The notes under the pieces: generated by a model
Seen by the model: the letters and a program-made list of their open reading frames with translations, nothing else
Database searches by the model: none
Told to the model about the DNA's origin: nothing
NCBI RefSeq assembly: GCF_000382705.1
Contig: NZ_ARQE01000001.1
Span: 415,551-479,550, forward strand
Reading direction: 5' to 3'
DNA length: 64,000 nt
Source: Aureimonas ureilytica DSM 18598 = NBRC 106430
GTDB lineage: Bacteria; Pseudomonadota; Alphaproteobacteria; Rhizobiales; Rhizobiaceae
Shown here: in pieces, positions 31,541 to 58,468 of the stretch
Position numbering within the stretch: the stretch's first letter is position 1
Layout of the letters: each line of letters opens with the position of its first letter
Translations under genes and position numbers: made by a program

Positions 31541-34098
31541 GCATGGCGGCCGAACTCAACGCGATGCGCCGCCCCGAGGACCCGGACCAGGAGGACGAAT
31601 CCGTCCGCAAGGGACAGGCCGAGCGCCTGATCGCCGTCTGGGACTCGCCGAAGGGCTGGCGCTACTGGTCCGACGTCAACAACACGACGGTCGGCGTCTG
31701 GTACACGGCGACGGCCTTCGCCTTCATGCTGTTTGCCGGCGTGCTCGGCCTGATGATCCGCGTGCAGCTGGTCGCGCCCGACACCGACTTCCTGTCGGCG
31801 ACCATGTACAATCAGGTCTATACGCTACACGGCACGGTGATGATGTTCCTCTTCGCCGTCCCGATCTTCGAGGCGGTGGCGGTGATCCTCCTGCCGCAGA
31901 TGCTCGGCGCGCGCGACCTGCCCTTTCCGCGCCTGTCGGCCTTCGGCTACTGGTGCTTCCTGATCGGCGGCATCTTCGTCTGCGGCTCGATCTTCTTCGG
32001 GCAGGCCCCCAATTCCGGCTGGTTCATGTACCCGCCGCTGACCACGCAGGCGCGCTTCACGCCGGGTTATGGCGCGGATATCTGGCTGCTCGGCCTGTCC
32101 TTCATCGAGGTCGCCTCGATCGCCGCCGCCGTGGAACTCATCGTCGGCGCGCTGAAGTGCCGCCCGCCCGGCATGAAGCTGAACCTCATGCCGCTCTACG
32201 CCTGGTATGTCCTCGTGGTCGCGGCGATGATCCTCTTCGCCTTTCCGCCGCTGATCGCCGGCGACATCCTGTTCGAGATGGAGCGCCTGTTCGACTGGCC
32301 CTTCTTCGACCCGACGCGCGGCGGCGATCCGATGCTCTGGCAGCATCTGTTCTGGATCTTCGGCCATCCGGAGGTCTACATCATCTTCCTGCCGACCATC
32401 GCGCTCTTTGCGATGATCATCCCGACCTTCGCGCGCCGCCCGCTGATCGGCTATTCCTGGATCGTGCTGGCAGCGGTCGGCACCGGCTTCCTGTCTTTCG
32501 GCCTGTGGGTCCACCACATGTTCACGACAGGCCTGCCGGCCATGTCGCTCGGCTTCTTCTCGGCGGCCTCGGAAGCGGTCGCGATCCCGACCGGGGTGCA
32601 GATCTTCGTGTTCCTCGCGACCTGCCTTGCCGGCCGCGTCATCTTCGCCGTGCCCATGCTCTTCGTGTCCGGCTCGCTCGGCATTTTCGTGCTGGGCGGT
32701 CTCACCGGCGTCATGGTGGCGATCGCGCCCTTCGACTGGCAGGTGCACGACACCTATTTCGTCGTCGCCCATCTCCATTACGTCATCATCGGCGGCGTCC
32801 TGTTTCCGATCGTCGCCGGCCTCTACTACTACTGGCCGATCGTCTCCTCGCGCAAACTCTCGGACCGCTGGGGCAAGATCGCCTTCTGGCTGATGTTCGT
32901 CGGCTTCAATGTCGGCTTCTTCCCGATGCACTATTCCGGCATGATCGGCATGCCGCGCCGCGTCTACACCTATCCGGCGGCGCTCGGGCTGGAACTCCCG
33001 AACCTCATCTCGACAATCGGCGCCTTCATCTTCGCCGCCGGCTTCCTGATCGTGGTGGCCGACATGCTGCGCCCCCGCAAGGACCCTTATGCCGATCGCA
33101 ATGTCTGGAACGCCGGCACGCTGGAATGGGCGGGCGAGGTGCCGGACCAGCCCTGGGGCGTGCGCTCCGTCCCGATCATCCGCTCGCGCTATCCGCTCTG
33201 GGACCAGCCGGGCTTCGTGGACGATATCGATAAGGGCCGCTTCTATCTGCCCGACGCGCAGGAGGGGAAACGCGAAACGCTGGTGACGAGCGTGCTCGAC
33301 GCCGAGCCGATCCAGTGCCTGCGCGTGCCCGGCCCCTCCTTCGTGCCGATGGGCGCGGCGGTCTTCCTTGGCGCCTGCTTCATCGCCGCGACCTTCCACT
33401 ATTGGACGCTGACCATCGCCTCGCTCGTGATCGCGATCTTCGTGATCATGTTCTGGCTCTGGAAGGCGACCGCCGTCATCCCCGAGAAGGACGAGAAATA
33501 TGTCGGCCTCGGCCTGACCCTGCCGACCTACATGTCCGGTCCGCATTCGGTGTCCTGGTGGGCCATGTTCATCACCATGATCGGCGATGCCACGGCCTTC
33601 CTGTCCCTGGTGTTCGGCTATTATTTCTTCTTCACGATCCACGAGAACTTCCCCCCGCCGGGCGACACAGGTCCCGGCCAGTTCTGGCCGAGCGTCTCGC
33701 TGGCGCTCTTCGCGCTCGGCTGGGGCGCGACACTCCTGTCGCATCGCGTGTTGAAGCGCGGCGGCGCGATGTTCGCCCGCGCCCTGATGGCGCTGGGGCT
33801 CGTGGCGTTCCTCGGTGCCGGCGCGGCGCTTCTCTGGGCGCCGCATGTGACCGGGCTTCAGCCGACCGTCCATGTCTATCCCGCGACCGTCTGGATTCTC
33901 TGCATCTGGACGGCGATCCACGCGGGCGTCGGGTCGCTGATGCTGGCTTACTGTCTGGCGCGCTCCTTCGCGGGCAAGCTCACGGGGCGCTACGACATCG
34001 ATCTCGCCAATGTCGCGCTCTACACGCATTTTGCGGCCGCGACCGGCCTCGTGACGGTGCTCACCGTCGGCTGGTTCCCTCTCGTGGCGGGAGGGTAG
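31537..34098 (+). CDS. coxAC: cytochrome c oxidase subunits I and III, fused
   Basis: An 853-residue membrane protein joining subunit I (about 1-560) to a subunit III domain (about 590-853). Subunit I has the haem a ligand region YTLHGTVMMF, the CuB/Tyr cross-link block WIFGHPEVY, the CuB histidines in VHHMF, and HDTYFVVAHLHY with the haem a3 and haem a ligands. The subunit III part has seven or so helices, including ALYTHFAAATGLVTVLTVGWF. Fused I+III is a known arrangement of caa3-type oxidases. With coxB it forms the proton-pumping terminal oxidase of the respiratory chain. The stop codon TAG is immediately joined to the palindromic element at 34097-34260. Confidence 0.93.
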   Translation: MSMAAELNAMRRPEDPDQEDESVRKGQAERLIAVWDSPKGWRYWSDVNNTTVGVWYTATAFAFMLFAGVLGLMIRVQLVAPDTDFLSATMYNQVYTLHGTVMMFLFAVPIFEAVAVILLPQMLGARDLPFPRLSAFGYWCFLIGGIFVCGSIFFGQAPNSGWFMYPPLTTQARFTPGYGADIWLLGLSFIEVASIAAAVELIVGALKCRPPGMKLNLMPLYAWYVLVVAAMILFAFPPLIAGDILFEMERLFDWPFFDPTRGGDPMLWQHLFWIFGHPEVYIIFLPTIALFAMIIPTFARRPLIGYSWIVLAAVGTGFLSFGLWVHHMFTTGLPAMSLGFFSAASEAVAIPTGVQIFVFLATCLAGRVIFAVPMLFVSGSLGIFVLGGLTGVMVAIAPFDWQVHDTYFVVAHLHYVIIGGVLFPIVAGLYYYWPIVSSRKLSDRWGKIAFWLMFVGFNVGFFPMHYSGMIGMPRRVYTYPAALGLELPNLISTIGAFIFAAGFLIVVADMLRPRKDPYADRNVWNAGTLEWAGEVPDQPWGVRSVPIIRSRYPLWDQPGFVDDIDKGRFYLPDAQEGKRETLVTSVLDAEPIQCLRVPGPSFVPMGAAVFLGACFIAATFHYWTLTIASLVIAIFVIMFWLWKATAVIPEKDEKYVGLGLTLPTYMSGPHSVSWWAMFITMIGDATAFLSLVFGYYFFFTIHENFPPPGDTGPGQFWPSVSLALFALGWGATLLSHRVLKRGGAMFARALMALGLVAFLGAGAALLWAPHVTGLQPTVHVYPATVWILCIWTAIHAGVGSLMLAYCLARSFAGKLTGRYDIDLANVALYTHFAAATGLVTVLTVGWFPLVAGG

Positions 34099-34260
34099 AG
34101 TGACTTTCGAAACCTCACAGGGTCGGCTGGCGGAGGCTTTTCGCCGCCGGGCATCGTTGCCAATCCTCGCCGATGCCGCCGGCATCGACTGCGGTCGGCG
34201 CCTTGCCGACGACCAAAATCCTTCCACCATCCTCCGCCCGGAGGTCTCGAAAGTCACTCT
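34097..34260. repeat. 164-bp palindromic intergenic element, copy 1
   Basis: The ends AGAGTGACTTTCGA and TCGAAAGTCACTCT are perfect inverted repeats, extended by ACCTC/GAGGT after one mismatch. The centre contains a second hairpin (CGATGCCG-C-CGGCATCG, 34171-34187). The internal part aligns with the reverse complement of 58308-58468, sharing GGGTCG, CATCGTTGCC, CTCGCCGATGC, GCATCG, TCGGCGCCTTGCCG and AAAAT in order. It exactly fills the coxAC-to-next-gene gap. No target-site duplication or coding capacity was found. Confidence 0.8.
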
Positions 34261-34263
34261 GCG

Positions 34264-34644
34264 ATGTTCGGCCTAAGGCGCGGCACGCGCGACAGTCTCA
34301 TCACCATGATCGCGACGCCCACGGTCTGGGCGCTGCATTTCCTCCTGTCCTATGTCTGGGTGGCGAGCGCCTGCGCGCCCAACGAGGACGTGTTCAAGTC
34401 GATCACCCCGGCGCGGATCGGGGTCGCCATCGCCACGGTTCTGGCGCTCGCCTTCTGCTTCTTTGCCGGCTTGCGCGCGTGGCGCGAATGGCGGGCCGAA
34501 GGCGGCGAGCCGCCGCACGACAAGCCGACCCAGTTCGACCGCGAGCGGCAGATGGAGATCGCCTCCGTGCTTCTGTCGGGCCTGTCCTTCCTCGCCATCA
34601 TCTTCACGGCGCTGCCCGTGCTTCTCGTCTGGGATTGCCGATGA
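34264..34644 (+). CDS. small membrane protein of the oxidase operon
   Basis: A 126-residue protein with three hydrophobic helices (TPTVWALHFLLSYVWVASA, RIGVAIATVLALAFCFFAGL and IASVLLSGLSFLAIIFTALPVLLV). The HFLLSY segment and a cysteine pair position (SACAP, VWDC) recur in remembered proteins encoded next to caa3 oxidases, but no catalytic motif is present. It is likely an oxidase assembly or accessory factor. Its stop overlaps the ctaG ATG (ATGA). The 164-bp palindromic element lies just before the ATG, leaving no room for an independent promoter and only a weak ribosome-binding site. Confidence 0.7.
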   Translation: MFGLRRGTRDSLITMIATPTVWALHFLLSYVWVASACAPNEDVFKSITPARIGVAIATVLALAFCFFAGLRAWREWRAEGGEPPHDKPTQFDRERQMEIASVLLSGLSFLAIIFTALPVLLVWDCR

Positions 34645-35291
34645 CCTCCGCCGCGCTTCGGCGGCACGGACCGCTCGGCCTCGCCCTCCTGCTTCTCGCC
34701 GTGCTCTGGATCGGCCCCTTGCCGGCGCGGGCCGAGACCTCGTTTGCCGCGCATATGGTGCTTCATATGGGCGTGGTGGCGCTGGCCGCGCCGCTCCTGG
34801 CCTTCTCGCTCGGGCGATCGGGACTTTTGCCGGCGAGCGCCGCGACCGGGCGCTTCGTCCTGCCGGCCGCGCTTCTGGAATTCCTGCTCATCTGGGGCTG
34901 GCACGCCCCGGCGCTGCATGACGCCGCGCGCCAGCATGTCGGCCTGTTCGCGCTGGAACAGGGCTCATTCCTGCTCGCCGGCCTGTTTCTCTGGACGACG
35001 GCGCTTGGAAGTCTCGGCAGCCGGCAGACCGGAGCGCGCGCGGCCGGGGCGGCGGGTCTGCTTCTCACCTCCATGCACATGACGCTGCTCGGCGCGCTTC
35101 TGCTTCTCGCCCCGCGCCCGCTCTATCGCTGCGGCACGCTCTGCTCGCCGCTGGCGACGCTCACCCCGCTGGAGGACCAGCAGCTCGGCGGCACCTTGAT
35201 GCTGCTCGTCGGCGGCGCGGCCTATCTCGCGGGCGGCATCGCGCTGCTCGCCGGCGTCCTGAGATTACCAAAGGTCGAGGCGCGCCCATGA
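34641..35291 (+). CDS. ctaG: CtaG-type cytochrome c oxidase assembly protein (caa3 class)
   Basis: A 216-residue polytopic protein of the Caa3_CtaG family (PF09678), needed for CuB or haem insertion in caa3 oxidases; it is unrelated to the Cox11-type CtaG. Visible blocks include SFAAHMVLHMGVVALAAPLLA, LLIWGWHAPALHDAAR, LLTSMHMTLLGALLLLAPRPLY and LTPLEDQQLGGTLMLLVGG. Conserved histidines in the HMVLHM and WHAPAL segments are likely metal ligands. The ATG overlaps the stop of the upstream gene, and its stop overlaps the next ATG, so translation is coupled through this part of the operon. Confidence 0.87.
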   Translation: MTSAALRRHGPLGLALLLLAVLWIGPLPARAETSFAAHMVLHMGVVALAAPLLAFSLGRSGLLPASAATGRFVLPAALLEFLLIWGWHAPALHDAARQHVGLFALEQGSFLLAGLFLWTTALGSLGSRQTGARAAGAAGLLLTSMHMTLLGALLLLAPRPLYRCGTLCSPLATLTPLEDQQLGGTLMLLVGGAAYLAGGIALLAGVLRLPKVEARP

Positions 35292-36616
35292 AGCGGACCA
35301 TCAAGATCACCTGGACCCGCCTCGCGCTTCTGCCCGTCATCGGCGTCGCGGGCGCGCTTCTCGTCGGCGGCTCCGGCCTTGTGTCCATTGCCGCCTCGTC
35401 GGGCCATTTCGCGCCGGTCGAATGGTTCCTCCATTGGACCTTCAACCGCGCCGTCTCGACGCAGTCGCTGCCCATTTCGGTGCCGGACGGCGTCGATCTG
35501 AAGGACCCCATTCTGATCCAGCGCGCGGCCGGCCATTTCGCCAGCGGCTGCGCGCCCTGCCATGGCGCGCCGGGGGAGCTTCAGTCGCCGCTGACGGCCC
35601 ATATGGTGCCGCCGCCGCCCCGGCTCGAGGAGCGCGTCGGCGAGTGGAAGGACCGCGAGCTTTATTGGCTCGGCCTGCATGGCATCAAATATTCCGGCAT
35701 GCCCTCCTGGACCACGCAGACGCGGCCGGACGAAATCTGGTCGCTCGTCGCCTTTCTACGCGCCCTGCCCGACATGACGCCTGAAACCTATGCCGATCTG
35801 GCGCTCGGCGGCGCGGGCGGCGGCATGGGTGGCGCGCCCGTCCCGGCGGCTTTGAAGCCGGCGCTGGCGGGCCTCGGGCAGAAAAGCGTGCCGGCGCTCG
35901 CCGACTGCGCGCGTTGCCATGGCTATGACGGGCGCGGCCGCGGCGCGGAAGGCGCCTTCCCCAACATCGCCGGCCAGCCGGAAGCCTATCTCGCGGAAAC
36001 GCTGATCGCCTATGCCAATGGCACGCGCGAAAGCGGCATCATGACGCCCGCCGCCGGCATCCACGATCAGGCGGTCTTGCGCGAACTCGCCGCCTGGTAT
36101 GCCCGTCAGGACCCCGGTCCGGCGCCCGGCGGGGACATTCCGCCGCCCTCGGGCGTCACGATTGGCTACGAGGGCTCGACGCGCCTGCCGCGCGGCAGCG
36201 TCGGCCCGAATGCGCCCGCGACGGAGCCCCCCGCCAGCGGCTCGGCCGCCGAGGTGGACCACGCCGCCGCGCACGGTCCGCCCTACAGCGCGACCGGCCT
36301 TCTGGAACTCGGCCAGCGTCTTGCGGAGGAAGGCCTGCCCGACCGCAAGCTCGCCGCCTGCGACACCTGCCACGGCGCGGCGGGTCGCGAGAAGAACCCG
36401 CATTACCCGCGCCTCGCCGGCCAGCCCGAATGGTTCCTCGCCACCCAGCTCCAGCTCTGGAAGGACGAGCACCGGGGCGGCACGCCGTTCAACCATGTGA
36501 TGACCCCGATCGCGATCAACCTGACCGAGGAGCAGATCGACGCGCTGGCGCTCTGGTATTCGCGCGCCGACCCGGCCGGCGGCGCGCCTCTTTCCAGCGC
36601 GGCGGCGGGGCGCTAA
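35288..36616 (+). CDS. membrane-anchored tri-haem cytochrome c
   Basis: A 442-residue periplasmic electron carrier with one N-terminal membrane anchor (LALLPVIGVAGALLVGGSGLV) and three haem c sites: CAPCH near residue 91, CARCH near 206 and CDTCH near 360. Each haem domain has a downstream methionine candidate ligand (KYSGMPSW, SGIMTPAAG, FNHVMTPIA). The layout resembles the cytochrome c subunits that deliver electrons to caa3 or alternative oxidases, or the haem subunits of membrane dehydrogenases. It is the last gene of the oxidase operon, overlapping ctaG by four bases. A Pro/Ser-rich linker separates the second and third domains. Confidence 0.87.
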   Translation: MKRTIKITWTRLALLPVIGVAGALLVGGSGLVSIAASSGHFAPVEWFLHWTFNRAVSTQSLPISVPDGVDLKDPILIQRAAGHFASGCAPCHGAPGELQSPLTAHMVPPPPRLEERVGEWKDRELYWLGLHGIKYSGMPSWTTQTRPDEIWSLVAFLRALPDMTPETYADLALGGAGGGMGGAPVPAALKPALAGLGQKSVPALADCARCHGYDGRGRGAEGAFPNIAGQPEAYLAETLIAYANGTRESGIMTPAAGIHDQAVLRELAAWYARQDPGPAPGGDIPPPSGVTIGYEGSTRLPRGSVGPNAPATEPPASGSAAEVDHAAAHGPPYSATGLLELGQRLAEEGLPDRKLAACDTCHGAAGREKNPHYPRLAGQPEWFLATQLQLWKDEHRGGTPFNHVMTPIAINLTEEQIDALALWYSRADPAGGAPLSSAAAGR

Positions 36617-36671
36617 GCCGGCCTTTCTGATGGGTCGGTGCGCCTGTGCCGGCCTGCAAGGGAAAGCCACC

Positions 36672-37589
36672 ATGCCGCTTCACATCGAGACGCCGCTCGT
36701 TCCGTCCTCGCCCCTCTCGCGCGAGGGGCTGGAGGTCTGGCTGAAGCTCGAAGCGCTCCAGCCGCCGGGCTCCTTCAAGATCCGGGGCATCGGGCATGCC
36801 TGCGAGCGCCATGCGCAAGCCGGCAAACGGCGCTTCGTCTCCTCCTCGGGCGGCAATGCCGGGCTCGCCGTCGCCTATGCCGGGCGCCGTCTCGGCCTGC
36901 CCGTCACGGTGGTCGTGCCGGAAACCACGAGCGCCCGCGCCCGGGCCCTGATCGAGGCGGAAGGGGCGGAGCTGCGCGTCCACGGCGCGGCGTGGCACGA
37001 GGCCAACGCGCTGGCGCTGTCCCTCGTGGACGAGACGACGGCGTTCCTTCACCCCTTCGACGATCCGCTTCTCTGGGAAGGCCATGCCAGCCTGATCGAC
37101 GAGGCGCTGCGACAGGGCGCGCGCTTCGACGCCGTGGTGCTCTCGGTCGGCGGCGGCGGGCTTCTGGCCGGCGTCGTGGAAGGGCTGAAGCGCAACGGAT
37201 TGAGCACGCCCGTCTTCGCGGTGGAGACGCACGGCGCGGCCTCGCTGGCGCGCTCGGTGGAGGCCGGGCAGCGGGTGGAACTTTCGGAGATCGCGACCGT
37301 CGCCACCTCGCTTGCCGCCCGTCAGGTCTGCGAACAGGCCTTCGAGCTGACCAAGCGCCACGACATCCGCCCGGTTCTCGTCAGCGACCGCGCGGCGCTC
37401 CAGGCCTGCGAGCGCTTTCTGGACGATCACCGGCTTCTGGTGGAGCCCGCCTGCGGCGCGGCGCTGGCGGCGCTGGAGGTGGCCGATCTCACGGCCTTCC
37501 GCTCGGTTCTGGTCGTGGTCTGCGGCGGGGCGGTGGCGACGATCGACACGATCCGCGCGGCGAGCGCCGCGCTCGCCCCGGCCGCCTGA
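36672..37589 (+). CDS. PLP-dependent serine/threonine dehydratase-like enzyme
   Basis: A 305-residue fold-type II PLP enzyme. The Schiff-base lysine is Lys36 in QPPGSFKIRGIGH, the phosphate loop is VSSSGGNAGLAVAY and the glycine-rich loop is LSVGGGGLLAGVVEG. This matches L-serine/L-threonine deaminases (animal SDH-like), which yield pyruvate or 2-oxobutyrate and ammonia. The absence of an ACT-type regulatory domain argues for a catabolic enzyme over IlvA. A serine residue near the cofactor cannot be assigned without alignment. ATG 36672 follows AAGGGAAAG. It stands between the oxidase operon and the kinase gene without overlap. Confidence 0.83.
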   Translation: MPLHIETPLVPSSPLSREGLEVWLKLEALQPPGSFKIRGIGHACERHAQAGKRRFVSSSGGNAGLAVAYAGRRLGLPVTVVVPETTSARARALIEAEGAELRVHGAAWHEANALALSLVDETTAFLHPFDDPLLWEGHASLIDEALRQGARFDAVVLSVGGGGLLAGVVEGLKRNGLSTPVFAVETHGAASLARSVEAGQRVELSEIATVATSLAARQVCEQAFELTKRHDIRPVLVSDRAALQACERFLDDHRLLVEPACGAALAALEVADLTAFRSVLVVVCGGAVATIDTIRAASAALAPAA

Positions 37590-37670
37590 CCGGCCTTGCC
37601 TTTTCGCGCCCTGCCTCTCGCCACCCGCGCCCTCTCCGCGCATGATCGCCCCTGATTCGGGGGAGCCTGC

Positions 37671-38558
37671 ATGAGCATCGTGTTTCTGGGGATCGACGCG
37701 GGCGGCACCTCTTGCCGCGCGCGGCTGATCGACGAGAGCGGAACCCTGTTCGGCGAGGGCGCGGCCGGTCCGGCCTCCGCGCGGCTCGGCGTGGAAACCG
37801 TGTTCGACGCCCTGATGAGCGCGGCGCGCGAGGCTTGGCGCGCGGCAGGGCTCGGCCCCTTCGCCTTCGGCCGGGTGCGCGCGGCGGCCGGGATAGCCGG
37901 CTATCTGCGCGAGGGCGTGGCCGACAGTTTCGCCGCGCGGCCCCATCCGTTCGAAAGCCTGACGCTGACCGACGACGGCACGATCGCCTGCCTCGGCGCC
38001 CATGGCGGGGCCGATGGCGGCGTGGTGATCGCCGGCACGGGCTCCATCGCCTATGCCCGGCAGAACGGGCGAACGCTGCGCTTCGGCGGCTACGGCTTTC
38101 CGGCCTCGGACGAAGGCTCGGGCGCGCGGCTCGGCCTTGCCGCGATGGAAGCCGCCTTCCAGGCGCTCGACGGCCGGCTGCAGCCGACCCCATTGACCGA
38201 AGCGCTGCTCGATCGGTTCGGCGGCCGCGCCCCGGCCATGACGCTCTGGTGCGAGGGCGCGACGCCGACCGACTACGGGAGCCTCGCTCCGCTCGTGACC
38301 CTTCATGCCGAGCGCGGCGACAAGGTGGCCCAGCTTCTGATGGAAAGCGCGGGCGACGCGCTGGCCGCGCTCGCCGCGACGCTGGAGGCGGCGGGCTGCG
38401 CGCGCGTCGCGCTGACCGGCGGCCTGTCCTCGGCGATCCAGCCCTACCTGCCGCAGGCGCTCGCCCGCCGCCTCGCCGAGCCGATGGGCGACGCGCTGGA
38501 CGGTGCGCTCGCGCTGGCGGGCCTGCCGCTCGCCCCCGCCATGTCGGATGCACGCTGA
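37671..38558 (+). CDS. BadF/BcrA-family ATPase, N-acetylglucosamine kinase-like
   Basis: A 295-residue ASKHA-fold protein with the phosphate-1 loop [14 protein letters not shown] at the N-terminus, the adenosine/connect regions [15 protein letters not shown] and [12 protein letters not shown], and [10 protein letters not shown] in the C-terminal half. This is the BadF/BadG/BcrA/BcrD domain; short single-domain members such as this are mostly glucosamine or N-acetylglucosamine kinases, which phosphorylate amino sugars recovered from peptidoglycan or chitin. No sugar transporter or nagA/nagB homologue is next to it, so the substrate stays inferred. ATG 37671 fits the conserved start. Confidence 0.8.
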
Positions 38559-38664
38559 CGCTTGTCGCTCCGGTGGTGGCGCGAGAGGCCTTCCTTCGTG
38601 TATCGAAGGCACGACGACAAACGCCGCGCGGCACAGGCGCGGCTCGGGATGGGATGCGAAGACG

Positions 38665-39777
<1,113 letters not shown>

Positions 39778-39779
39778 GC

Positions 39780-40250: not shown

Positions 40251-40278
40251 TCGCTTTTCGCGCAAGGACCTTTGACCC

Positions 40279-41121: not shown

Positions 41122-41210
41122 CAAGCGTGGGGCGTCGGAGCGATCCGGGGCCCCTTTTCACGATGAGGACAGGCGGCAGGTGGGATGCCGCGACAGGGGG
41201 ACAGGACAGG

Positions 41211-42638: not shown

Positions 42639-42659
42639 GCGGATTTCCAAAAATTGCTA

Positions 42660-44140: not shown

Positions 44141-44163
44141 GCCACACCTTAAATCCGAACACG

Positions 44164-44189: not shown

Positions 44190-44195
44190 CCTCGT

Positions 44196-47955: not shown

Positions 47956-47966
47956 TTTTATAATCC

Positions 47967-47981: not shown

Positions 47982-48054
47982 TGTTTCTCCTAGCGAGGGC
48001 GGGAAGCCCGTTCAAGGGGCTGGTTCCCGAGCGTGCGAAAGGGCGGATACGAAA

Positions 48055-48075
48055 AAGGGCCGGAAACCGGCCCTT
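48055..48075 (-). terminator. terminator of the second chemoreceptor gene
   Basis: AAGGGCCGG and CCGGCCCTT form a perfect 9-bp stem with a three-base loop; on the minus strand it runs into TTTTTCG, 38 bases past the stop of the chemoreceptor gene. Confidence 0.8.
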
Positions 48076-48112
48076 CTCATGAGGATGACACGGGGAGGGG
48101 AGGCGGGCGCCG

Positions 48113-50098: not shown

Positions 50099-50665
50099 GA
50101 TCGGTCTGCCTTGCTGGATTCGCTTCCGTCGCGTGGGGACGCCTCGTGCCTCCCGGCCCCGCCGCATGGGTCTGATGGAAGGGATTGCGCCCTTCTCTCA
50201 CCCGTCGGTATTCCTTAGGCGTTTAAGGAATCACCTGATCCCCGCTGAAAATGCTCTGAATGACGCCGTTCGCAGGTCAGGTATGCAATTTTGGGTGGAC
50301 TCGGATGCGAGGGGGGATGCGCTGATGGAAAGGCCAGGCGCCTTCGGATAACGATATGGCCGCCGGAAGTACGCATATGAACGCGTGTTTGTTCGCCGGC
50401 TTAGCTCGAGCCGAAGGGGTTGGGGCGAAGGAGACTCCGCTCGCGCCAGCGCCGCCGCTCGAAGGCGTGGCTGTGGAAAGCCCAGGGCATGGAAAGGGCT
50501 GGGGCGCGCGGCGGGGAAGACGACGTCGGAGGGGTCGCGCCGTCGCGCGTGGAGATCCCCGCATCCGGACAGGGCGTCGGCTGGGTGCCCTCCGCCCTGG
50601 GAGGCCCGCCGGGCAGGGCCGTGCCGTCCGCGCCGGGCCCGCCGCCTTGGCGCGCTAAACCTGCG
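50099..50665. other. 567-base region without a supported gene
   Basis: Between the divergently placed chemoreceptor start and the end of the diguanylate cyclase gene, no frame shows family motifs. Several open frames exist on the plus strand but they are Arg/Gly/Pro-rich, as expected of random GC-rich DNA. An AT-richer patch at 50215-50300 probably holds the chemoreceptor promoter. A CCTCC/GGGAGG pair at about 50600 could form a hairpin behind the cyclase gene. Confidence 0.5.
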
Positions 50666-51823: not shown

Positions 51824-52012
51824 AGGGTCCTCACGGAGCATCGTCATGCCCAAACTGGCACGAAGCCCGTAAAGGAAGACGGAATCGGAGGGACGACTTT
51901 TGACGAGCTCAACAATCGAAGGCCCAAGCCCGACGAGAAAGCGGCGTCGATGGACCAGAACGATACGGTAACCGAGGTCTCGTTTCTGCCGTTCAGCCCC
52001 GGAGACCGCAAA

Positions 52013-52037
52013 GTCTACTTGCGGTCTGGGACAATCC
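52013..52037. terminator. hairpin behind the emrA gene
   Basis: AGACCGCAA and TTGCGGTCT form a perfect 9-bp stem with a seven-base loop, 37 bases beyond the emrA stop. There is no T-tract, so it may be a terminator, or a regulatory site for the cyclase gene that starts nearby. Confidence 0.5.
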
Positions 52038-52073
52038 GTCGGCATCCCGCGAGCGGTGGAGGCCGAGCCCGGC

Positions 52074-53144
52074 TCAGCCCCCGTTGGCGGAGGCCTGCCG
52101 CGTGTCCGGCTCGGCCGCCGTGTCCACGAAGACCACGACCGACAAGCCGGGCGACAGGTCGTCCATGCGCGGCTGGCCGGGGTCGATGCGAATGCGCACG
52201 GGCACGCGCTGGGCGACCTTGGTGAAGTTGCCGGTGGCGTTGTCGGGGCGCAGCACGGCGAATTCCGAGCCCGTGGCGGGCGCGAAGCGCTCGATATGTC
52301 CGGTCATCTCGCGGCCGCCGAAGGCATCCACCGTGAAGCGCACGGGCTGGCCGACCTGCATGCCGGGAAGCTGCGTTTCCTTGAAATTGGCGACCACCCA
52401 GATGGCGTCCGGCACGACGCTGGTGAGCTGCGTTCCGGCCTGGACATATTGCCCGGCCTTGACGCCGACTTCGCCGAGCTGGCCGGCGCGGGGGGCCAGG
52501 ATGCGCGTGTTGGCGAGATCGATCTCGGCGAGCTTCACGGCGGCCTCGGCATTGTCCACCGCCGCTTCCAGCGTCTGGCGATTGACGATCACGGTCTGCA
52601 GGTCCTGCCGGGCGACTTCGAGCTGCGCCTTGGCCTGATCGAGCGCGGCCTCGGCCTGGCTGTTCTGGCGGGTGGCCACGTCGAGATCGCTGCCCGGCAC
52701 GTAGCCCTGGCGGGCCAGCGGCTGGACGCGGGCGAAGTTGGCGCTGGCGTTCTCGGCGGCCGAGGCCGCGCTCTTCACCGCCGCCTCGCTGGCCGCGATC
52801 TTGGCGAGACTCGACTGGCGCTGCTGCTGCGAATTGGCGAGCGCGGCCTTCTGGCCGGCGAGGCCCGCACGGGCCTGCGCGACGCGCTGCGCGAAGATGC
52901 GGTCGTCGAGCCGGGCGATGAGCTGGCCGGCCTCCACGGTCTCGTAGTCCTGCACCGCGACCTCGGCGACGATGCCGGCGAGCTGCGGGGCGATCACCGT
53001 CACCTGCCCGCGCACATAGGCGTCGTTGGTGCGCTCGACGCTGCTGTCGAAGGGCGGCAGGCGCCAGGCATAAAGGGCGAGAAACACGCCGGCGAGGCCG
53101 ACGAACAGCGCGACATAGGTGCCGAGGGAGCGAAACGGGCGCAT
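52074..53144 (-). CDS. emrA: HlyD/EmrA-type membrane fusion protein
   Basis: Periplasmic adaptor of 356 residues with one N-terminal membrane helix (LGTYVALFVGLAGVFLALYAW). The lipoyl/barrel-sandwich halves flank a long alpha-hairpin rich in Ala/Gln/Glu heptads (about 95-215), and the beta-barrel domain has VVANFKETQLPGMQVGQPVRF. It joins the EmrB-like pump encoded just upstream to an outer-membrane channel not encoded here. The gap to the upstream emrB stop is 21 bases, so the two are co-transcribed, with the MarR repressor gene first. Confidence 0.9.
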   Translation of the reverse strand: MRPFRSLGTYVALFVGLAGVFLALYAWRLPPFDSSVERTNDAYVRGQVTVIAPQLAGIVAEVAVQDYETVEAGQLIARLDDRIFAQRVAQARAGLAGQKAALANSQQQRQSSLAKIAASEAAVKSAASAAENASANFARVQPLARQGYVPGSDLDVATRQNSQAEAALDQAKAQLEVARQDLQTVIVNRQTLEAAVDNAEAAVKLAEIDLANTRILAPRAGQLGEVGVKAGQYVQAGTQLTSVVPDAIWVVANFKETQLPGMQVGQPVRFTVDAFGGREMTGHIERFAPATGSEFAVLRPDNATGNFTKVAQRVPVRIRIDPGQPRMDDLSPGLSVVVFVDTAAEPDTRQASANGG

Positions 53145-53165
53145 GGCGAAACCGAAAAAGAGGGT

Positions 53166-54926
53166 TCAGGCCTCGACCGGCGCGGCGGGGGCGGAGCCCG
53201 CGCGCAGCCGGTCGACGGCGAGGTGGAGAAGAAGAAACAGGAGGGCGAGGGCGGCCGCCGCCGCCGTCACGAGGAAGGCGTCGTTATAGGCGAGGATATT
53301 GGCCTCGCGCGTCGCTTGGCTGCCGAGGAGCGCTAGCCCCTCCGCCTGCCGCAGGGCCGGGTCGGCGAGAGTGGCGCGGTAGCTGTTGCCGAGCGCGGCG
53401 ATGCGGGCGGCGACGATCGGATCGGCAAGGGTGATGTTCTCGGCGATCTGGCTCGAATGGAACTTCTCGCGGATCGTGACGAAGGTGCGGAACAGCGCCG
53501 CGCCCATCGCCCCGCCCAGCGCCTGCGTGGTCAGGAAGATGATCAGGAAGGACAGGATGTAGTTCATGCCCTTCTTCATGGCCGAGGCGAAGCCCTGCGC
53601 CATGGCCGGCGGCAGGAAGAGCGTGCCCGCCGCCGCGATCAGGCCCTGGCTGAGATACATCTGCTCGGGCCGGGTCAGCGAGGTCGCCTTAGCGTCCAGA
53701 AGCGCGCCGGCGATCAGGAACAGGAGCGCGACGATGTGGATATAGGGCGCGCGGCCGGGCTTCAGGATCGAGGCGCAGACGAGCCCCGCCGTGATCGAGG
53801 AGCCGAGCATCACGAGATAAAGCACCACCATCTGCTCGTTGCGCAGGCCCAGCACCTGGAAGAAACCCGACGCGCCGCTCGTCTGCTCCGACAGGAGAAG
53901 CCGGAACAGGAGGATGACGCCGGCAAAGTGCAGGATTTCCTTGGAGGTGATCCAGCGCAGATCGACGAGCGGATTGGTGCGGTTCAGCTCGATCACGGCG
54001 GCGACGGTGAGGCTGAGCGCCCCGCCGGCCAGCGTCCAGCCGATCCAGGGCGCTTCCAGCCACCAGTCGAAGGGGCCGAGCGTCACGGCCACGGCGATGG
54101 CACCGAGGCCCGTCGCGATGAAGGCGTAGGACACGAGGTCGAGCCGCTCGATCACCGGCGTCTTGGGCGGCGAGTTGAGCGGCAGGAGGCGGATCGCGCA
54201 GAAGCTCATCAGCGCCAGCGCTGCTTCCAGCGCGAAGAGGCCGTTCCAGTCGCCGATGTCGAGAAGGCCGGGCGAGACGAGGCGCGCCAATGTGGGCGCG
54301 ATCGCCGTGTTGGTGAGCGCAAGGCTCATGCCGATCGAGAGCTTCTTCTCGGGCGGAAAGCTTTCCAGCATGTAGAGAAAGCCGAGCGAGGACATGGGCG
54401 AGGCGGCCGCGCCCGCGAAGAAGCGCACCACCAGCGCCGACTGGAGATCGTCCACGAAGAGATGCAGCAGCGTCACCGCGACGAAGCCGGCGATCGCCCA
54501 TTCGGCGAAATTGCGCAGGCCGAACTGGGCGCGCATCTTGGTCAGAAGCAGGGTCAGGCTGACATTGGGCGCCAGATAGGCCGCGCTCAGCCACACGGTC
54601 TCGTTCACGGTGGAGCCGAGCGGGCCTTGCAGCTGGTAGAGATTGGCGGAGATGAGGTTGAGGCCGAGTCCCTGCGTCGCCGCGATCAGGATCGAGGCGA
54701 GAATATAGAGCGCCATCAGGGCGGGCGGCTTGCGCACATAGGGCGCGGGCGCGGGCATGGGCGCGCCGCGCCGGCGCGGCGGGGCCACCGGGCCGCCGTC
54801 GATTTGGGTGTCCCGCGGCGCGTCGCCGCCGAGCGAGGCGGTCGCAGCATGGGGTGCGGGGGAGGGCGCGGGGGAGGGCGCGGCCCTGGTCGGCGCGGGG
54901 GCCGGGCGCGCCGTGTCATCCCGCAT
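53166..54926 (-). CDS. emrB: EmrB/QacA-type (DHA2) drug efflux MFS transporter
   Basis: A 586-residue major facilitator of the 14-helix DHA2 family. After a Pro/Ala-rich cytosolic N-terminus of about 80 residues come the helices; NETVWLSAAYLAPNVSLTLLL and FFAGAAASPMSSLGFLYML are typical, as is LGGAMGAALFRTFVTIREKFHS near the end. It expels hydrophobic toxicants through the EmrA adaptor. ATG 54926 overlaps the marR stop by 11 bases, so translation is coupled to the repressor. The classical WxxxxYxL motif C is less clear than in Gram-positive QacA. Substrates are unknown. Confidence 0.87.
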   Translation of the reverse strand: MRDDTARPAPAPTRAAPSPAPSPAPHAATASLGGDAPRDTQIDGGPVAPPRRRGAPMPAPAPYVRKPPALMALYILASILIAATQGLGLNLISANLYQLQGPLGSTVNETVWLSAAYLAPNVSLTLLLTKMRAQFGLRNFAEWAIAGFVAVTLLHLFVDDLQSALVVRFFAGAAASPMSSLGFLYMLESFPPEKKLSIGMSLALTNTAIAPTLARLVSPGLLDIGDWNGLFALEAALALMSFCAIRLLPLNSPPKTPVIERLDLVSYAFIATGLGAIAVAVTLGPFDWWLEAPWIGWTLAGGALSLTVAAVIELNRTNPLVDLRWITSKEILHFAGVILLFRLLLSEQTSGASGFFQVLGLRNEQMVVLYLVMLGSSITAGLVCASILKPGRAPYIHIVALLFLIAGALLDAKATSLTRPEQMYLSQGLIAAAGTLFLPPAMAQGFASAMKKGMNYILSFLIIFLTTQALGGAMGAALFRTFVTIREKFHSSQIAENITLADPIVAARIAALGNSYRATLADPALRQAEGLALLGSQATREANILAYNDAFLVTAAAAALALLFLLLHLAVDRLRAGSAPAAPVEA

Positions 54927-55377
54927 GGCCGCGATCCCGCTCCAGCGCCTCGGACACGCGAAGGAGAACCCCGAGCGCGACCTCGACATCGGCGGCCGGC
55001 ACGTCGCGCAGCACGAGGTCGCGCAGCTCGCGCGACACGCCCGCGACGATCTCCGCCGCTTCGCGCCCCTTTGCCGTCAGCTCGATCCGCTTGACGCGCC
55101 GGTCGCCCTCGACGGCGGTGCGGCGCAGAAGGCCGAGCGCTTCCATCCCGTCGAGAAGGCGCACCACGGTCGGCCCTTCGAGTTCCAGATCGTCAGCCAG
55201 TTCTCGCTGGGTCATGGCCTGGCGGCTGAGCGCGGCCAGCGCCCGGGCGCGGGGATAGGTGAGCCCCCGCGCCACCACCCGCGCGTCGAAACGCGTGCGC
55301 AGCTTACGCGCCGTCTTGATCAGCGTTTCGGCGAAGCGGGCGTGAAGAAGGCGATCGGCATCGGTCATGGCGCCCAT
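54916..55377 (-). CDS. MarR-family repressor of the efflux operon
   Basis: A 153-residue winged-helix MarR protein: the DNA-binding region reads QAMTQRELADDLELEGPTVVRLLDGMEALGLLRR with wing EGDRRVKRIELTAKG. It is the first gene of an operon with emrB and emrA, the common layout in which a ligand-responsive MarR protein represses the pump. No cysteine is present, so a redox mechanism as in OhrR is unlikely. The start could be ATG 55377 or ATG 55368. A small palindrome CTTAGTAAG at 55392-55400, close to the start, is a possible operator half. Confidence 0.85.
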   Translation of the reverse strand: MGAMTDADRLLHARFAETLIKTARKLRTRFDARVVARGLTYPRARALAALSRQAMTQRELADDLELEGPTVVRLLDGMEALGLLRRTAVEGDRRVKRIELTAKGREAAEIVAGVSRELRDLVLRDVPAADVEVALGVLLRVSEALERDRGHAG

Positions 55378-55391
55378 ATAGATAGAGGGCT

Positions 55392-55400
55392 CTTAGTAAG
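55392..55400. promoter_or_regulatory. possible MarR operator in the marR upstream gap
   Basis: CTTA-G-TAAG is a 4-1-4 dyad in an AT-rich patch 15 bases before the marR start. The MarR family binds short dyads of this type, but the match is too small to be specific. It also lies between divergent genes. Confidence 0.35.
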
Positions 55401-55496
55401 CAAGGCATTGCAAATCGATTGGGCTCGTTCGGCTTGACGGGGTCGGACGGCTGTCGTCACAAGTTCCGAACGCCTCGGCCGACGAAGGATGCCACC

Positions 55497-55781
55497 ATGC
55501 CGGATGCCGCCTCTCCCCGCATCACGATCCGCTACTGCACCCAGTGCCAGTGGCTCCTGCGCTCGGCCTGGCTGGCGCAGGAACTTCTGTCCACCTTCGG
55601 CCCGGACCTCGGCGAGGTCGCGCTGATTCCCGGAACGGGCGGCGTGTTCGAAGTGCATTGCGACGACGCACTGATCTGGGAGCGCAAGGCCGATGGCGGC
55701 TTTCCCGAGGCCAAGATCCTCAAACAGCGGGTCCGCGACATCATGGACCCCGAGCGCAGCCTCGGGCACAGCGACCGCTAG
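55497..55781 (+). CDS. SelT/SelW/SelH-like thioredoxin-fold protein
   Basis: A 94-residue protein of the Rdx family (PF10262). The N-terminal RITIRYCTQCQWLLRSAWLAQELL has the CxxC redox motif (Cys14-Cys17) that corresponds to CxxU in selenoproteins; here both are cysteines. GTGGVFEVHCDDALIWERKADGGFPE continues the fold. Such proteins bind glutathione or act as small oxidoreductases, with the role in bacteria unknown. ATG 55497 fits the family start and is preceded by GAAGGATG. A large hairpin follows. Confidence 0.85.
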   Translation: MPDAASPRITIRYCTQCQWLLRSAWLAQELLSTFGPDLGEVALIPGTGGVFEVHCDDALIWERKADGGFPEAKILKQRVRDIMDPERSLGHSDR

Positions 55782-55787
55782 GAGACG

Positions 55788-55829
55788 GATCGGGCCGCCT
55801 CTTCCTCTGAAGGAAGACGCGGCCCGATC
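55788..55829 (+). terminator. hairpin behind the SelW-like gene
   Basis: GATCGGGCCGC pairs with GCGGCCCGATC (11 bp), and after a C-C mismatch TCTTCCT pairs with AGGAAGA around a CTGA loop. There is no T-tract. It separates this gene from the convergent DUF1236 gene. Confidence 0.65.
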
Positions 55830-55891
55830 TCATCGGATGGAGCGGGCTGACGCGCCGGGGCGCTCGTCAGCGCTCGCCTGTCGAGACGCTC

Positions 55892-56326
55892 TTAGCGCTC
55901 GACATAGGTGACCACGCGGCGGTCGGCCTTGGAGACGATCACCGGACGGTCGTTGTTGTAGAAATAGACATAGTCGGGGTTGGACGGGACCGGCGTCAGG
56001 ACGACGCTCTCGGGAACGACGTAGCCGGTCTTCACCTCGCCCTCGACCACGACCGGATTCACCGGATTGGCGATGACATACTGCTGCACGTCGTCGGGCG
56101 CGGAGGCCGCGCCGCCGATCACCGTGCCGGCGACGCCGCCGACCACGGCCCCGACCGGGCCGCCGACGAGAGCGCCCGCCACGGCGCCGGCGCCCGTGCC
56201 GGCCAGCGTGCCGGCGGCGCGTTCACCGTCGCTCTTCGGCTCGGTCGTGGTGACGACGGCGGTCTGGGCCAGCGCGGGGCCGGCAAGGATCGCGAGAGCG
56301 GCGGAAGCGAGAAGAATCTTACGCAT
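55892..56326 (-). CDS. DUF1236 periplasmic protein with glycine zipper
   Basis: A 144-residue exported protein: signal peptide (ILLASAALAILAGPALAQ), then a Gly/Ala-rich stretch (GTLAGTGAGAVAGALVGGPVGAVVGG) of the glycine-zipper type, and the C-terminal DUF1236 domain with VVVEGEVKTGYVVPESVVLTPVP and YVYFYNNDRPVIV. DUF1236 proteins are common in rhizobia and of unknown function; the glycine zipper can insert in or associate with membranes. No partner gene is obvious. The start at 56326 gives a complete signal peptide. Confidence 0.82.
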   Translation of the reverse strand: MRKILLASAALAILAGPALAQTAVVTTTEPKSDGERAAGTLAGTGAGAVAGALVGGPVGAVVGGVAGTVIGGAASAPDDVQQYVIANPVNPVVVEGEVKTGYVVPESVVLTPVPSNPDYVYFYNNDRPVIVSKADRRVVTYVER

Positions 56327-56433
56327 GGGTTCTAGGTCCTGAAAAAATGTCCCTCGCCGTCACAATTCGCGATCGCTCATTGCGTTCCCGCGTTGCGAGC
56401 CGGGTTGCGTGTTGCGGCGCGAAGGCAGGTGGC

Positions 56434-56790
56434 TCAGCGATCTTCGGCGACGGCGATCCGCACCTTGTCGGGATAGAAGGCGAGATGGCCGGCAATGGCG
56501 CGCGCGGCGTCCTTCGGCTGTTCGTAGCTCCACACGGCGTTGTCCGCGCCGTAGCCTTCCGCCGAGATCGACCAGTAGCGCGCCTCGCCCTTGTAGGGGC
56601 AGGTCGTCGAGCGGTCGGTCTCGTGCAGGAAGGCCATCTCCACATGCTCGCGCGGGATGTAGTAGACGGGCTCGCGGCCGCTTTCGACGAGTTTCAAGGC
56701 GTCGTTGGTGGACGCGATCACCGCGTCGTGGAACAGGACCTGGACGGCGCGGGGCTCGCGCTCGATGCGGATGCGGTCGGTGTCGGACAT
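56434..56790 (-). CDS. DUF427 domain protein
   Basis: A 118-residue cytosolic protein that is essentially one DUF427 (NTP_transf_9) domain, with REPRAVQVLFHDAVIAST, EPVYYIPREHVEMAFL, STTCPYKGEARYWSI and a C-terminal ending in AFYPDKVRIAVAEDR. The fold is a small beta-rich barrel and the function is not established. ATG 56790 matches the family start (MSDTDRIRIE). It is read leftwards towards the DUF1236 gene 107 bases away. It may be co-regulated with the adjacent ECF sigma factor genes, but nothing in sequence shows that. Confidence 0.8.
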   Translation of the reverse strand: MSDTDRIRIEREPRAVQVLFHDAVIASTNDALKLVESGREPVYYIPREHVEMAFLHETDRSTTCPYKGEARYWSISAEGYGADNAVWSYEQPKDAARAIAGHLAFYPDKVRIAVAEDR

Positions 56791-56962
56791 GGTCTGGCTC
56801 TCCCTTGGGCGTGCGAGCGGGCAGGGGCCGGCGCGCATCTTGATCGAAACAAAGCCGCCGGCGCGCCGCTCGGTTCCCGCCCGGCGGCGGGAGCGACGAG
56901 GCGGCGCGGTTGACAAGCCGGCTTCGGTTCTGTTCGGTGCCCGCGCCTCGGGGGAATGACGG

Positions 56963-57535
56963 ATGCCGCCACGATCGACGCCGAACGACCCGCGCGAGCA
57001 TCTCGCCCGGTGCCTCGCCGAGGTCGCGGCCGGGCGCCGCGAGGCGCTGCGCGAAGTCTATGATCTCACCTCGGCGAAGCTTTTCGGCATTTGCCTTCGT
57101 ATCTTGGAAGACAGGGTCGAGGCCGAGGACGTGTTGCAGGAAGTCTATCTCGCGGTGTGGAACAAGGCGGGGCGGTTCGAGCCCGAGCGGGCGAGCCCGA
57201 TCACCTGGCTCGCAACGATCGCGCGCAACCGCGCCATCGACCGCTTGCGGGCGCTTGGGCCCACGCGCACCGCGCGCCGCGACCTCGACGCCGCCGAGAC
57301 CGTGGCGGACGAAGCGCCCGACGCGCTCGCGCGGCTGGAAGCGCAGGGCGAGACGGCGCGGCTGCGCGCCTGCCTCGAGCAATTGGAAGCGCGCGCGAGA
57401 GAGGCGATCGTCAGCGCCTTCTATGGCGGGCGCACCTATGACGATCTGGCCGAACAAGCGGGGGTTCCGCTCGGAACGATGAAGAGTACGATCAGGCGCG
57501 GCCTGATCCGGTTGAAAGGATGCCTCGGCGAATGA
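56963..57535 (+). CDS. ECF sigma factor (SigK-like)
   Basis: A 190-residue extracytoplasmic-function sigma factor. Region 2 reads YDLTSAKLFGICLRILEDRVEAEDVLQEVYLAVW and PITWLATIARNRAIDRLRA; region 4 reads REAIVSAFYGGRTYDDLAEQAGVPLGTMKSTIRRGLIRLK. It directs polymerase to a stress regulon when released by the anti-sigma factor encoded next, whose ATG overlaps its stop. The SigK/RskA-like pairing and a nearby fasciclin gene recur in bacteria and suggest an envelope or oxidative stress signal. ATG 56963 follows GGGGGAATG. No clear autoregulated promoter consensus was recognised. Confidence 0.9.
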   Translation: MPPRSTPNDPREHLARCLAEVAAGRREALREVYDLTSAKLFGICLRILEDRVEAEDVLQEVYLAVWNKAGRFEPERASPITWLATIARNRAIDRLRALGPTRTARRDLDAAETVADEAPDALARLEAQGETARLRACLEQLEARAREAIVSAFYGGRTYDDLAEQAGVPLGTMKSTIRRGLIRLKGCLGE

Positions 57536-58293
57536 AGGGCGATGCCGATCCCGAAGGCGAGGGCTGGCTGGCGGCGGAATACGCGCTGGGCGTCCTGACG
57601 CAGCCCGAGCGCCTCCAGGCGGAGCGCCGCGCCCGGCAGGACGCCGCGTTCGCGGCCGAGATGGCGGATTGGTCCGAGCGCCTCGCGCCGCTCGGCGAAG
57701 CCGTGCGCCCGCAAGCGCCGCCGCCGCTCCTGTGGGAGGCGATCGAGCGCGAGCTGTTCCCGGCCGCCCGCGCCTCCGCCGACGCGGCGCGCGCCGATGC
57801 CCCTCGCGCGCCGCTTGCCCGCGCACCGGCCGCCCGGCCCGAGCGGGGCGTGTCCTCCTTCTGGCGCGTCCTGGCGCTCGGCTCCAGCGGCCTTCTGGCG
57901 GCCAGCCTCGCGCTGCTCGCGGTTCTCGCCCAGCGCCCCGGCCCGGCGCCCGCCATGATGGCCTCCGTCGCCTCGCAGAACGGCGCGGCGCTTCTCACCG
58001 CCGTGTTCGATCCCGCGACCGGCCATGCCATGCTGATGCCGGCGACGATGGCGATGCCCGAAGGGCGGGTGCCCGAGCTGTGGATCATCCCGGAGGGCAA
58101 GGCGCCGATCTCGCTCGGCCTTCTCGACCCCGACCGCCCCTTGCGCCTCGAACTGCGCCGGCCGGGCATGCCGATGGGCATGATGAAGCCAGGCGCGGCG
58201 ACGCTCGCCATTTCCGCCGAGCCGGCCGGCGGCTCGCCCACCGGCCAGCCCACCGGCCCCGTTCTCGGCACCGGCGCGCTGCGTTCGATCTGA
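57532..58293 (+). CDS. RskA-type anti-sigma factor, membrane-bound
   Basis: A 253-residue anti-sigma factor. The cytosolic N-terminal part (GWLAAEYALGVLTQPERLQAERR, about 10-75) binds the sigma factor; one membrane helix (LGSSGLLAASLALLAVLA, about 118-136) follows, and the periplasmic RskA domain reads AALLTAVFDPATGHAMLMPATMA, RVPELWIIPEGKAPISLGLL and ISAEPAGGSPTGQPTGPVLGTG. The ATG overlaps the sigma-factor stop, ensuring equimolar synthesis. Signal-dependent proteolysis would free the sigma factor. No zinc-binding HxxxCxxC motif is present, so it is not of the ZAS class. Confidence 0.88.
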   Translation: MKGDADPEGEGWLAAEYALGVLTQPERLQAERRARQDAAFAAEMADWSERLAPLGEAVRPQAPPPLLWEAIERELFPAARASADAARADAPRAPLARAPAARPERGVSSFWRVLALGSSGLLAASLALLAVLAQRPGPAPAMMASVASQNGAALLTAVFDPATGHAMLMPATMAMPEGRVPELWIIPEGKAPISLGLLDPDRPLRLELRRPGMPMGMMKPGAATLAISAEPAGGSPTGQPTGPVLGTGALRSI

Positions 58294-58307
58294 CGGGCGG
58301 CGTTCTA

Positions 58308-58468
58308 AGAGCCGGGGACAGAACCCTGCGGCGGAGAGCCGGCGAGGAATTTTCGTTCCCGGCAAGGCGCCGAGCGGAGGCGATGCAGCGCATCGGCGAG
58401 CATCGGCAACGATGATCGGGGGCGGAAAGACCCGGCGGATCGACCCAAAGGGTTTTGTCCCAGGCTCT
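58308..58468. repeat. 161-bp palindromic intergenic element, copy 2
   Basis: AGAGCC-GGGACA-AACCCT at the left end pairs with AGGGTT-TGTCCC-GGCTCT at the right end with single mismatches between blocks. The interior, read on the minus strand, matches the element at 34097-34260 over about 100 bases (CATCGTTGCC, CTCGCCGATGC, GCATCG, CTCGGCGCCTTGCCG, AAAAT). The terminal arms of the two copies differ but each pairs with its own partner. CTAAGAGCC occurs at both borders. Confidence 0.8.

Follow-up and report, generated by a model that had tools for sequence, protein, structure and literature searches.

Two palindromic elements in the window

The window, a 64,000-nucleotide stretch of the Aureimonas ureilytica DSM 18598 genome (contig NZ_ARQE01000001.1, positions 415,551 to 479,550), contains two copies of a dispersed palindromic element, each lying between two genes (all positions are those of the window). 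Copy 1 is located between a cytochrome-oxidase open reading frame (ORF; PF00115, COX1) that ends at 34098, the third base of its TAG stop being the first G of the element, and an ORF without a Pfam match that runs from 34264. Copy 2 is located between an anti-sigma ORF (PF10099, RskA_C; 57520-58293, forward strand) and a fasciclin ORF (PF02469) the start of which, by reading of the sequence, is near 58596. An earlier note on this DNA had reported two palindromes of about 160 bp at 34097-34260 and 58308-58468. Direct reading of the sequence bore out both elements and trimmed their borders: copy 1 is a 162-bp GAG...CTC element at 34098..34259 on the forward strand and copy 2 a 159-bp GAG...CTC element at 58309..58467 on the reverse strand, and the outermost base that had been counted on each side belongs to the flank.

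In copy 1, the terminal arm on the left reads GAGTGACTTTCGAAACCT (34098..34115) and has its inverted repeat in the right arm at 34242..34259. In copy 2, read in the orientation of the element, the left arm GAGCCTGGGACAAAACCC (58450..58467) belongs to what we call the GGGAC arm class, and the right arm GGGTTCTGTCCCCGGCTC occupies 58309..58326. As the note had observed, the arms differ between the copies while each is complementary to its own counterpart, and pairwise alignment agrees that the internal blocks follow one another in the same order. The conserved core lies at 34141..34219 in copy 1 and at 58349..58424 in copy 2 and matches our covariance model of the core (R1, described below) with 74.4 bits (E 1e-20) and 71 bits (E 1.2e-19), respectively; both copies are among the 46 sequences from which R1 was trained. 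Copy 2 is flanked by a TTA target-site duplication (TSD; 58468..58470 on the left and 58306..58308 on the right in element orientation). At copy 1 the expected TSD is degraded to GTA (34095..34097) and TGC (34260..34262), and the orthologous copy in another genome of the genus (G169) retains TGA...TGA. When folded as DNA, copy 1 was better than 200 of 200 dinucleotide shuffles (z -4.7); the fold of copy 2 was weaker, with a z of -2.4 and two of 200 shuffles equally good. An Rfam scan of the window returned no family at gathering score.

Target sites, terminal arms and candidate IS5-family partners

The source genome holds many further copies. Using blastn with copy 1 at E ≤ 0.001, we found 26 distinct places (27 rows, since copy 1 was also matched on its other strand), and R1 yielded 32 matches. 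After placing the element ends at GAG...CTC through best arm complementarity, which gave lengths of 159-166 bp, we found identical 3-bp direct repeats on both sides of 16 of the 26 copies. All were of the form TNA (TTA, TAA, TGA and TCA, mostly TTA or TAA), and inverted 3-bp repeats flanked none of the 26. When the right flanks were shuffled among the copies, direct repeats arose on average 6.2 times and at most 13 times in 10,000 rounds.

Comparison of the copy 1 locus across 21 genomes of the genus revealed four filled sites (the source genome, G164, G166 and G169) and 14 empty ones; one genome (G168) was matched solely via other copies of the element and two had no match. Where the element is absent, the oxidase gene stops with TGA, which either lies a few bases ahead of the next ATG (CTGATCCC...ATG in G170, G158 and G167) or overlaps it as TGATG (G160, G163, G079, G155 and others). 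The filled site of G169 reads TGA, GAATGAC...GTCATTC, TGA, and together with the TGA stop of the empty sites this indicates that the element inserted at TGA and duplicated it. G170 is empty despite flanks that are 92-93% identical, while more distant genomes are filled, and hence loss or allele exchange must have occurred as well. Among the 58 pairs of the four orthologous copies, 33 were invariant and 25 variable; of the latter, five had changed on both sides, two included G.T and 18 were unpaired in at least one genome. Copies thus decay after insertion. Few sites were shared between genomes: of 28 copies in the source genome (the 26 and two fetched later), both flanks were common with one copy of A. 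ureilytica NS365 (G170; 31 of its 39 copies fetched) and with one copy of Aureimonas sp. AU20 (G164; 28 of 58 fetched), and one further copy shared a single flank.

Within 34085-34266, copy 1 has inserted between the ATG of the following ORF and a likely Shine-Dalgarno sequence with which the oxidase gene ends. Where G170, G158 and G167 lack the element, the two are 8-11 bases apart; the right arm of copy 1 supplies another GGAGG at 34240-34244, 19 bases upstream of the ATG at 34264.

Insertion sequences (ISs) of the IS5 family that belong to the IS1031 group are described as using TNA targets with a 3-bp duplication, and a 17-bp end starting with GAACCTGT is shown for them (PMC12016507). We found six IS5-family elements with ends like the arms of our element, in sister genomes and in IMG/VR contigs, and all six contain IS5-type transposase domains (PF13340 and/or PF01609). 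Identical TNA flanks border three of these, namely an 842-bp IS of AU20 (ends GAGTTGGGGACAAAAC/GAGCTAGGGACAAAAC, TSD TAA/TAA), a 911-bp IS of G163 (GAGTCCGTCCGGAAAG/GAGCCCGTCCGGAAAC, TTA/TTA) and an 889-bp IS on an IMG/VR contig (GAGCGCCTAACAAAAC/GAGCGCCTAACAATAG, TTA/TTA). We then compared the 13 bases behind the first three of each arm with the six pairs of IS ends, using 87 copies from three Aureimonas genomes. In 35 of the 87 copies, one or both arms agreed with an IS end in at least 11 of the 13 bases, compared with a mean of 0.05 and a maximum of two in 1000 rounds with shuffled arms. The left arm of copy 2 is among the similar ones, matching the terminal inverted repeat (TIR) of an AU20 IS5-family element in 11 of 13 bases. 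The co-occurrence of an IS and a matching element in one genome is thin: in AU20, a single copy (L686, 11/13) bears a GGGAC arm, on one of its two sides, and in G163, locus L289 is GTCCG-armed by eye, with the automatically placed ends two bases off and a score of 5/13.

Among the 73 clean-ended copies of the 87, inner identity was 0.73 within and 0.63 between arm classes, and the similarities of arms and of inner sequences correlated moderately (r 0.50). Two copies of the source genome (L002 and L007) have insides that are 83% identical and arms that are 46% identical. At least four arm classes are joined to one core, and we could match an IS to three. The note had read the differing arms as compensatory and as a sign of selection on folding. 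A conserved fold of the core agrees with the second part of this proposal. For the arms, there is a simpler main cause than compensatory mutation: many of them match the TIRs of different IS5-family elements, and in our view the arms look compensatory mainly because both must suit the same transposase. The description of a dispersed, intergenic, MITE-like palindrome family with a conserved centre (MITE, miniature inverted-repeat transposable element) agrees well with our data: the element is short, has complementary and IS-like arms, TSDs and empty orthologous sites, and is too small to encode a transposase.

Further arm types were seen elsewhere. Five loci in small-genome Pseudomonadota metagenome-assembled genomes (MAGs), mostly of family f38 (L640, L644, L646, L648 and L653), have GTAACT-type ends, which represent another arm class. 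Arms of the GAGCCCGTCT/GAGCCCGTCCGG or GAGACCGTTTGG type occur outside Aureimonas in a Rhizobiaceae MAG (L089, L143), Jiella (L093, L145) and Plastoroseomonas (L083), and their likeness across these hosts suggests partner ISs common to several families. Scans of viral contigs for a GTAACA-type end gave nothing convincing, and a scan for GAGCCTGTTTGGAAAC gave four contigs, none with a paired end. In a Saprospiraceae MAG (G151:C108), a pair of ends 1 kb apart was considered as an autonomous element and rejected, as it consists of a normal element beside a lone end. The source genome also contains a 1.4-kb IS-like element (L048 1382-2783, contig C14) with the ends GAGGCTGTGTGGAAAC and a DDE transposase inside; its ends bear a loose likeness to the TGTTT arm class of our element.

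The conserved core and its distribution

The core is about 77 bp long. From 46 sequences hand-picked for diversity across many genera (alignment A2) we built the covariance model R1, and from 68 model matches (A3), which were fitted to the model, the broader model R2. A flank-pairing filter that aided the choice of A2 is not strict, letting 36 of 300 random segments through, and carries no evidential weight. In A2, 92.4% of the cells in helices were paired, and covariation reached 0.476, compared with a shuffle mean of 0.144 and values of 0.058-0.139 for slid versions of the alignment. Two-sided changes occurred in ten of the ten pairs that lie beyond the search pattern, a number that 31 of 500 shuffles also reached; the apical stem of A2 is nearly invariant by construction. 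In A3, covariation was 0.625 versus 0.163 after shuffling, with two-sided changes in 16 of 16 pairs. The covariation test proposed in the note is positive for A2. The stems are separated by pyrimidine-rich internal loops, with CTTCG or CTGCG opposite CCTCG or CCTTG, which are conserved from Aureimonas to Saprospiraceae. Since the loops that face each other are of like motif, each strand carries a rough direct repeat.

Counts obtained with R1 were 32 for the source genome, 58 for AU20, 39 for A. ureilytica NS365 and 14 for G079, and ranged from 0 to 8 in the 17 remaining members of the genus, so that 13 of the 21 had at least one match. With blastn and copy 1, 18 of 151 genomes of the family gave hits; convincing copies were present in four, the source genome among them, and the hits in the other 14 were short pieces of 22-51 bases. 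We also scanned GTDB genomes with a core pattern consisting of CTCGCCGATGC, 2-8 bases and GCATCGNCTNCG. At least 115 stretches matched, 80 of which were listed as loci. The matches listed include Aureimonas, Jiella, Shinella, Neorhizobium, Sphingomonas and Plastoroseomonas and also many MAGs named as Saprospiraceae, Bacteroidetes, Acidobacteria, Clostridia, Thermoleophilaceae, Burkholderiales and Oscillatoria. At convincing loci the likeness continues outside the pattern, and loci without shared flanks are probably chance matches. In 22 genomes picked for having a pattern hit, R1 found from one to at least 150 matches each, most in G151 (at least 150), G184 (90), Plastoroseomonas (80) and G182 (63), and Bacteroidota MAGs thus contain the core in high copy number. 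The one or two copies per genome in Oscillatoria and Thermoleophilaceae may be binning errors, and the convincing holders that we observed outside Pseudomonadota are MAGs. Among 398 evenly drawn Pseudomonadota genomes, 40, including the source genome, matched at E ≤ 0.001; 19 of these belong to one family (f38) and eight to the class of the source genome or a nearer group. The likeness to the first copy is not due to chance, and the element extends beyond the source genome and its class. A search of plasmids with a copy of gammaproteobacterial type (L653) gave no match.

In two Saprospiraceae/Bacteroidetes MAGs (G184 and G151), many contig ends lie within about 100 bases of an element, which seems to break the assemblies. 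Seven loci of Burkholderiales MAGs (L090, L107, L108, L124, L130, L138 and L142) represent a dispersed repeat that has the apex of the core pattern in common with our element and different surroundings; one genome with this repeat (G189) gave 23 R1 matches.

Proposed mobilisation, folding and possible kinship with ERIC

Taken together, we consider it probable that both copies in the window are hairpin MITEs of about 160 bp that are mobilised by the IS5 family and the core of which is kept as a DNA hairpin. The arms would be the recognition sites of IS5-family transposases that mobilise the element in trans, and it would spread by adopting ends that suit a resident IS5-family transposase, with both arms changing together. 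The core would be kept as folded DNA rather than RNA, and an extruded or single-stranded hairpin probably aids movement or persistence of the element. Several observations weigh against this view. For the arm class of copy 1 there was no partner among the IS ends compared, and 52 of the 87 Aureimonas copies likewise had none at the cut of 11 of 13 bases. The source genome, with 13 PF13340 and 11 PF01609 matches, some of them at contig ends, contained no IS with matching ends. Three of the six partner ISs have non-identical flanks: an 857-bp relative of the 842-bp IS in AU20 (TTA/TAA), a 907-bp IS of G161 (TAA/TGA) and a 913-bp IS on an IMG/VR contig (TTT/TAA). Outside Aureimonas, eight of 12 element-bearing genomes had no PF13340 match, including the Bacteroidota G151, G179 and G180 and a Chelatococcus MAG with 17 copies (G181); in the remaining four, none of the ten PF13340 loci had an end that could be matched to the element, and PF01609 hits in six Bacteroidota genomes lacked its ends. 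A looser end-finder applied to the 87 copies, decayed ones included, gave direct repeats in 36 and inverted ones in six, and in G151 the direct repeats (9 of 13) did not exceed those of shuffles (mean 7.4, maximum 11).

Strong covariation and a conserved core would also be expected of a structured RNA or of a module acting on mRNA 3' ends or stability, with selection acting on the transcribed hairpin, and the earlier note had listed a structured RNA and a transcription or mRNA module among its options. The gene context of 74 of the 87 copies, for which flanking genes were called by codon GC alone, fits such a role in that convergent pairs (22) outnumber divergent ones (9), and an effect of ERIC repeats on mRNA levels in Yersinia is reported (PMC10969869, PMC2229807). 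However, G.T pairs in the helices did not exceed A.C mismatches (12 versus 20 cells in A2 and 14 versus 24 in A3), unlike in 17 distinct tRNAs from the fetched loci, where the ratio was 15 to 0 (ARAGORN itself favours good stems). There was also no preference for gene orientation in the same 74 copies (21 with and 22 against co-directional genes), and the few sites common to sister genomes argue that single copies are not long-kept regulators. The core fold is kept, and we saw no sign of its being kept as a one-strand transcript; a role as RNA thus appears improbable to us. The rarity of G.T, and two-sided changes that far exceed one-sided ones, are also what templated correction would yield, that is, a neutral repair of the palindrome by template switching during replication that copies one arm onto the other without selection on folding, and the two-sided changes seen in situ in five of the 25 variable pairs of the copy 1 locus fit this process. 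Yet such repair would erase the mismatched internal loops, which persist from Aureimonas to Saprospiraceae, is at odds with the 18 variable pairs that have come apart in situ, and leaves the matches between arms and IS ends unexplained, so that we regard it as unlikely, if less so than an RNA module. The conserved mismatches of the hairpin and its broad range of hosts further recall REP-like elements, the hairpin of which is recognised and moved by RAYT, an HUH tyrosine transposase. Direct duplications and DDE-type TIRs are not expected of HUH transposition, and both the direct TNA duplications and the TIRs of our element make this explanation very improbable.

The same core raises the question of kinship with ERIC (also IRU or RU-1) of Enterobacterales and Vibrio, which has been used in typing for decades. 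Like our element, ERIC is a long imperfect palindrome, intergenic, dispersed and variable between strains. In relatives from Pseudomonadota the core reads CTGCGTTG-stem-GCTCGC-apical stem-CTGCG-stem-CGCCTTG, which is near the motif order of ERIC, and the order TGCGTTG, GCTC, apical stem, CGCCTT appears to recur in both. The element is not ERIC itself to judge by length and ends: ERIC is 127 bp long as opposed to about 160 bp, and has a 7-bp TIR with TA termini (PMC2229807), whereas our element has GAG...CTC arms and TNA duplications; the ends of ERIC were read in loci L660 and L661. R1 did not match E. coli ERIC, and for this reason the broader R2 was made. With R2, the best match of the locus fell on ERIC, on the same strand and in register, in four of seven ERIC loci (E-values for 4 kb of 0.0054 and 0.014 in Rahnella, 0.0085 in Citrobacter and 0.13 in Yersinia). 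Conversely, a model built from seven enterobacterial ERICs alone (R3) gave a single match in 41 loci (119.5 kb, default filters, E up to 10), which was the R1 element L653, in register and with an E of 1.2e-4. The matches are thus found both ways and are individually modest. The alternative, that GC-rich hairpins have converged on a similar form and the element of Aureimonas is a MITE without relation to ERIC, draws on the failure of R1, on the differences in length and ends, and on several results of the models: R3 matched none of the other 40 loci, including all 11 from Aureimonas; R2 fell on the Klebsiella ERIC (L666, E 0.05) but shifted out of register; in E. coli, L661 was in register but second (5.8 bits, E 1.8), and L660 had no match in register. 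In 17 IS-bearing control loci (52.6 kb) R2 gave nothing better than E 0.16, but the best control score of 13.2 bits overlaps the 9.7-14.4 bits obtained on ERIC. Because the best control score is as high as most of those on ERIC, the weight of the R2 link lies in the repeated position and not in the scores. On these grounds a distant kinship of the element with ERIC seems likely, and convergence less likely.

Our best reading of the family as a whole is that of an ERIC-like superfamily of palindromic MITEs that extends across phyla, in which the ends are exchangeable and a DNA-hairpin core is conserved. A bolder version can be offered tentatively, and we would sooner bet against it than for it: one ancient core, ERIC included, may have spread over phyla by swapping its ends and parasitising resident transposases, with the core being read in its folded form by a widely conserved factor. 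Recognition of the folded core, single-stranded or as a cruciform, would then be why the mismatched loops were kept while the ends were replaced. To our knowledge, the origin of ERIC and the enzyme that mobilises it remain open, and a possible relative with TSDs, empty sites and IS5-matched ends would make the question of its mobility directly testable. If true, keeping the core and replacing the ends would let a transposon outlast its partners in an unusual manner. The conserved mismatched loops point to a putative DNA-hairpin binder, and the family offers a natural explanation of seemingly compensatory arms that one might otherwise take for an RNA.

IS5-family MITEs of the IS1031 group resemble our element in their 3-bp TNA duplications, IS-like terminal repeats and lack of a transposase gene, and differ from it in that its inner sequence occurred in none of the ISs examined. 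Palindromic intergenic repeats of Alphaproteobacteria include RIME (Sinorhizobium), Bru-RS (Brucella) and CIR (Caulobacter), which we liken to the element by description alone. A 2011 study by Zo reportedly concerns, by its title, ERIC in Gammaproteobacteria. In the literature covered, seen in part and mostly excluding subscription papers, we found no account of the element family outside Gammaproteobacteria and none of ERIC relatives with IS5-family ends; a MITE review places ERIC in Enterobacteriaceae and Vibrionaceae (PMC10969869), and the repeat table of PMC2229807 lists CIR. The R0, R2 and related repeats of Pseudomonas fluorescens, which we also compare by description alone, are dispersed, MITE-like intergenic hairpins with a tail-to-tail bias and 'repeat deserts' (PMC2718517). 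A stretch that resembles the deserts described there for strain SBW25 is present on chromosome C1 (3.74 Mb) of AU20, where, among the copies listed, the 1.16 Mb between 1.95 and 3.11 Mb are free of the element.

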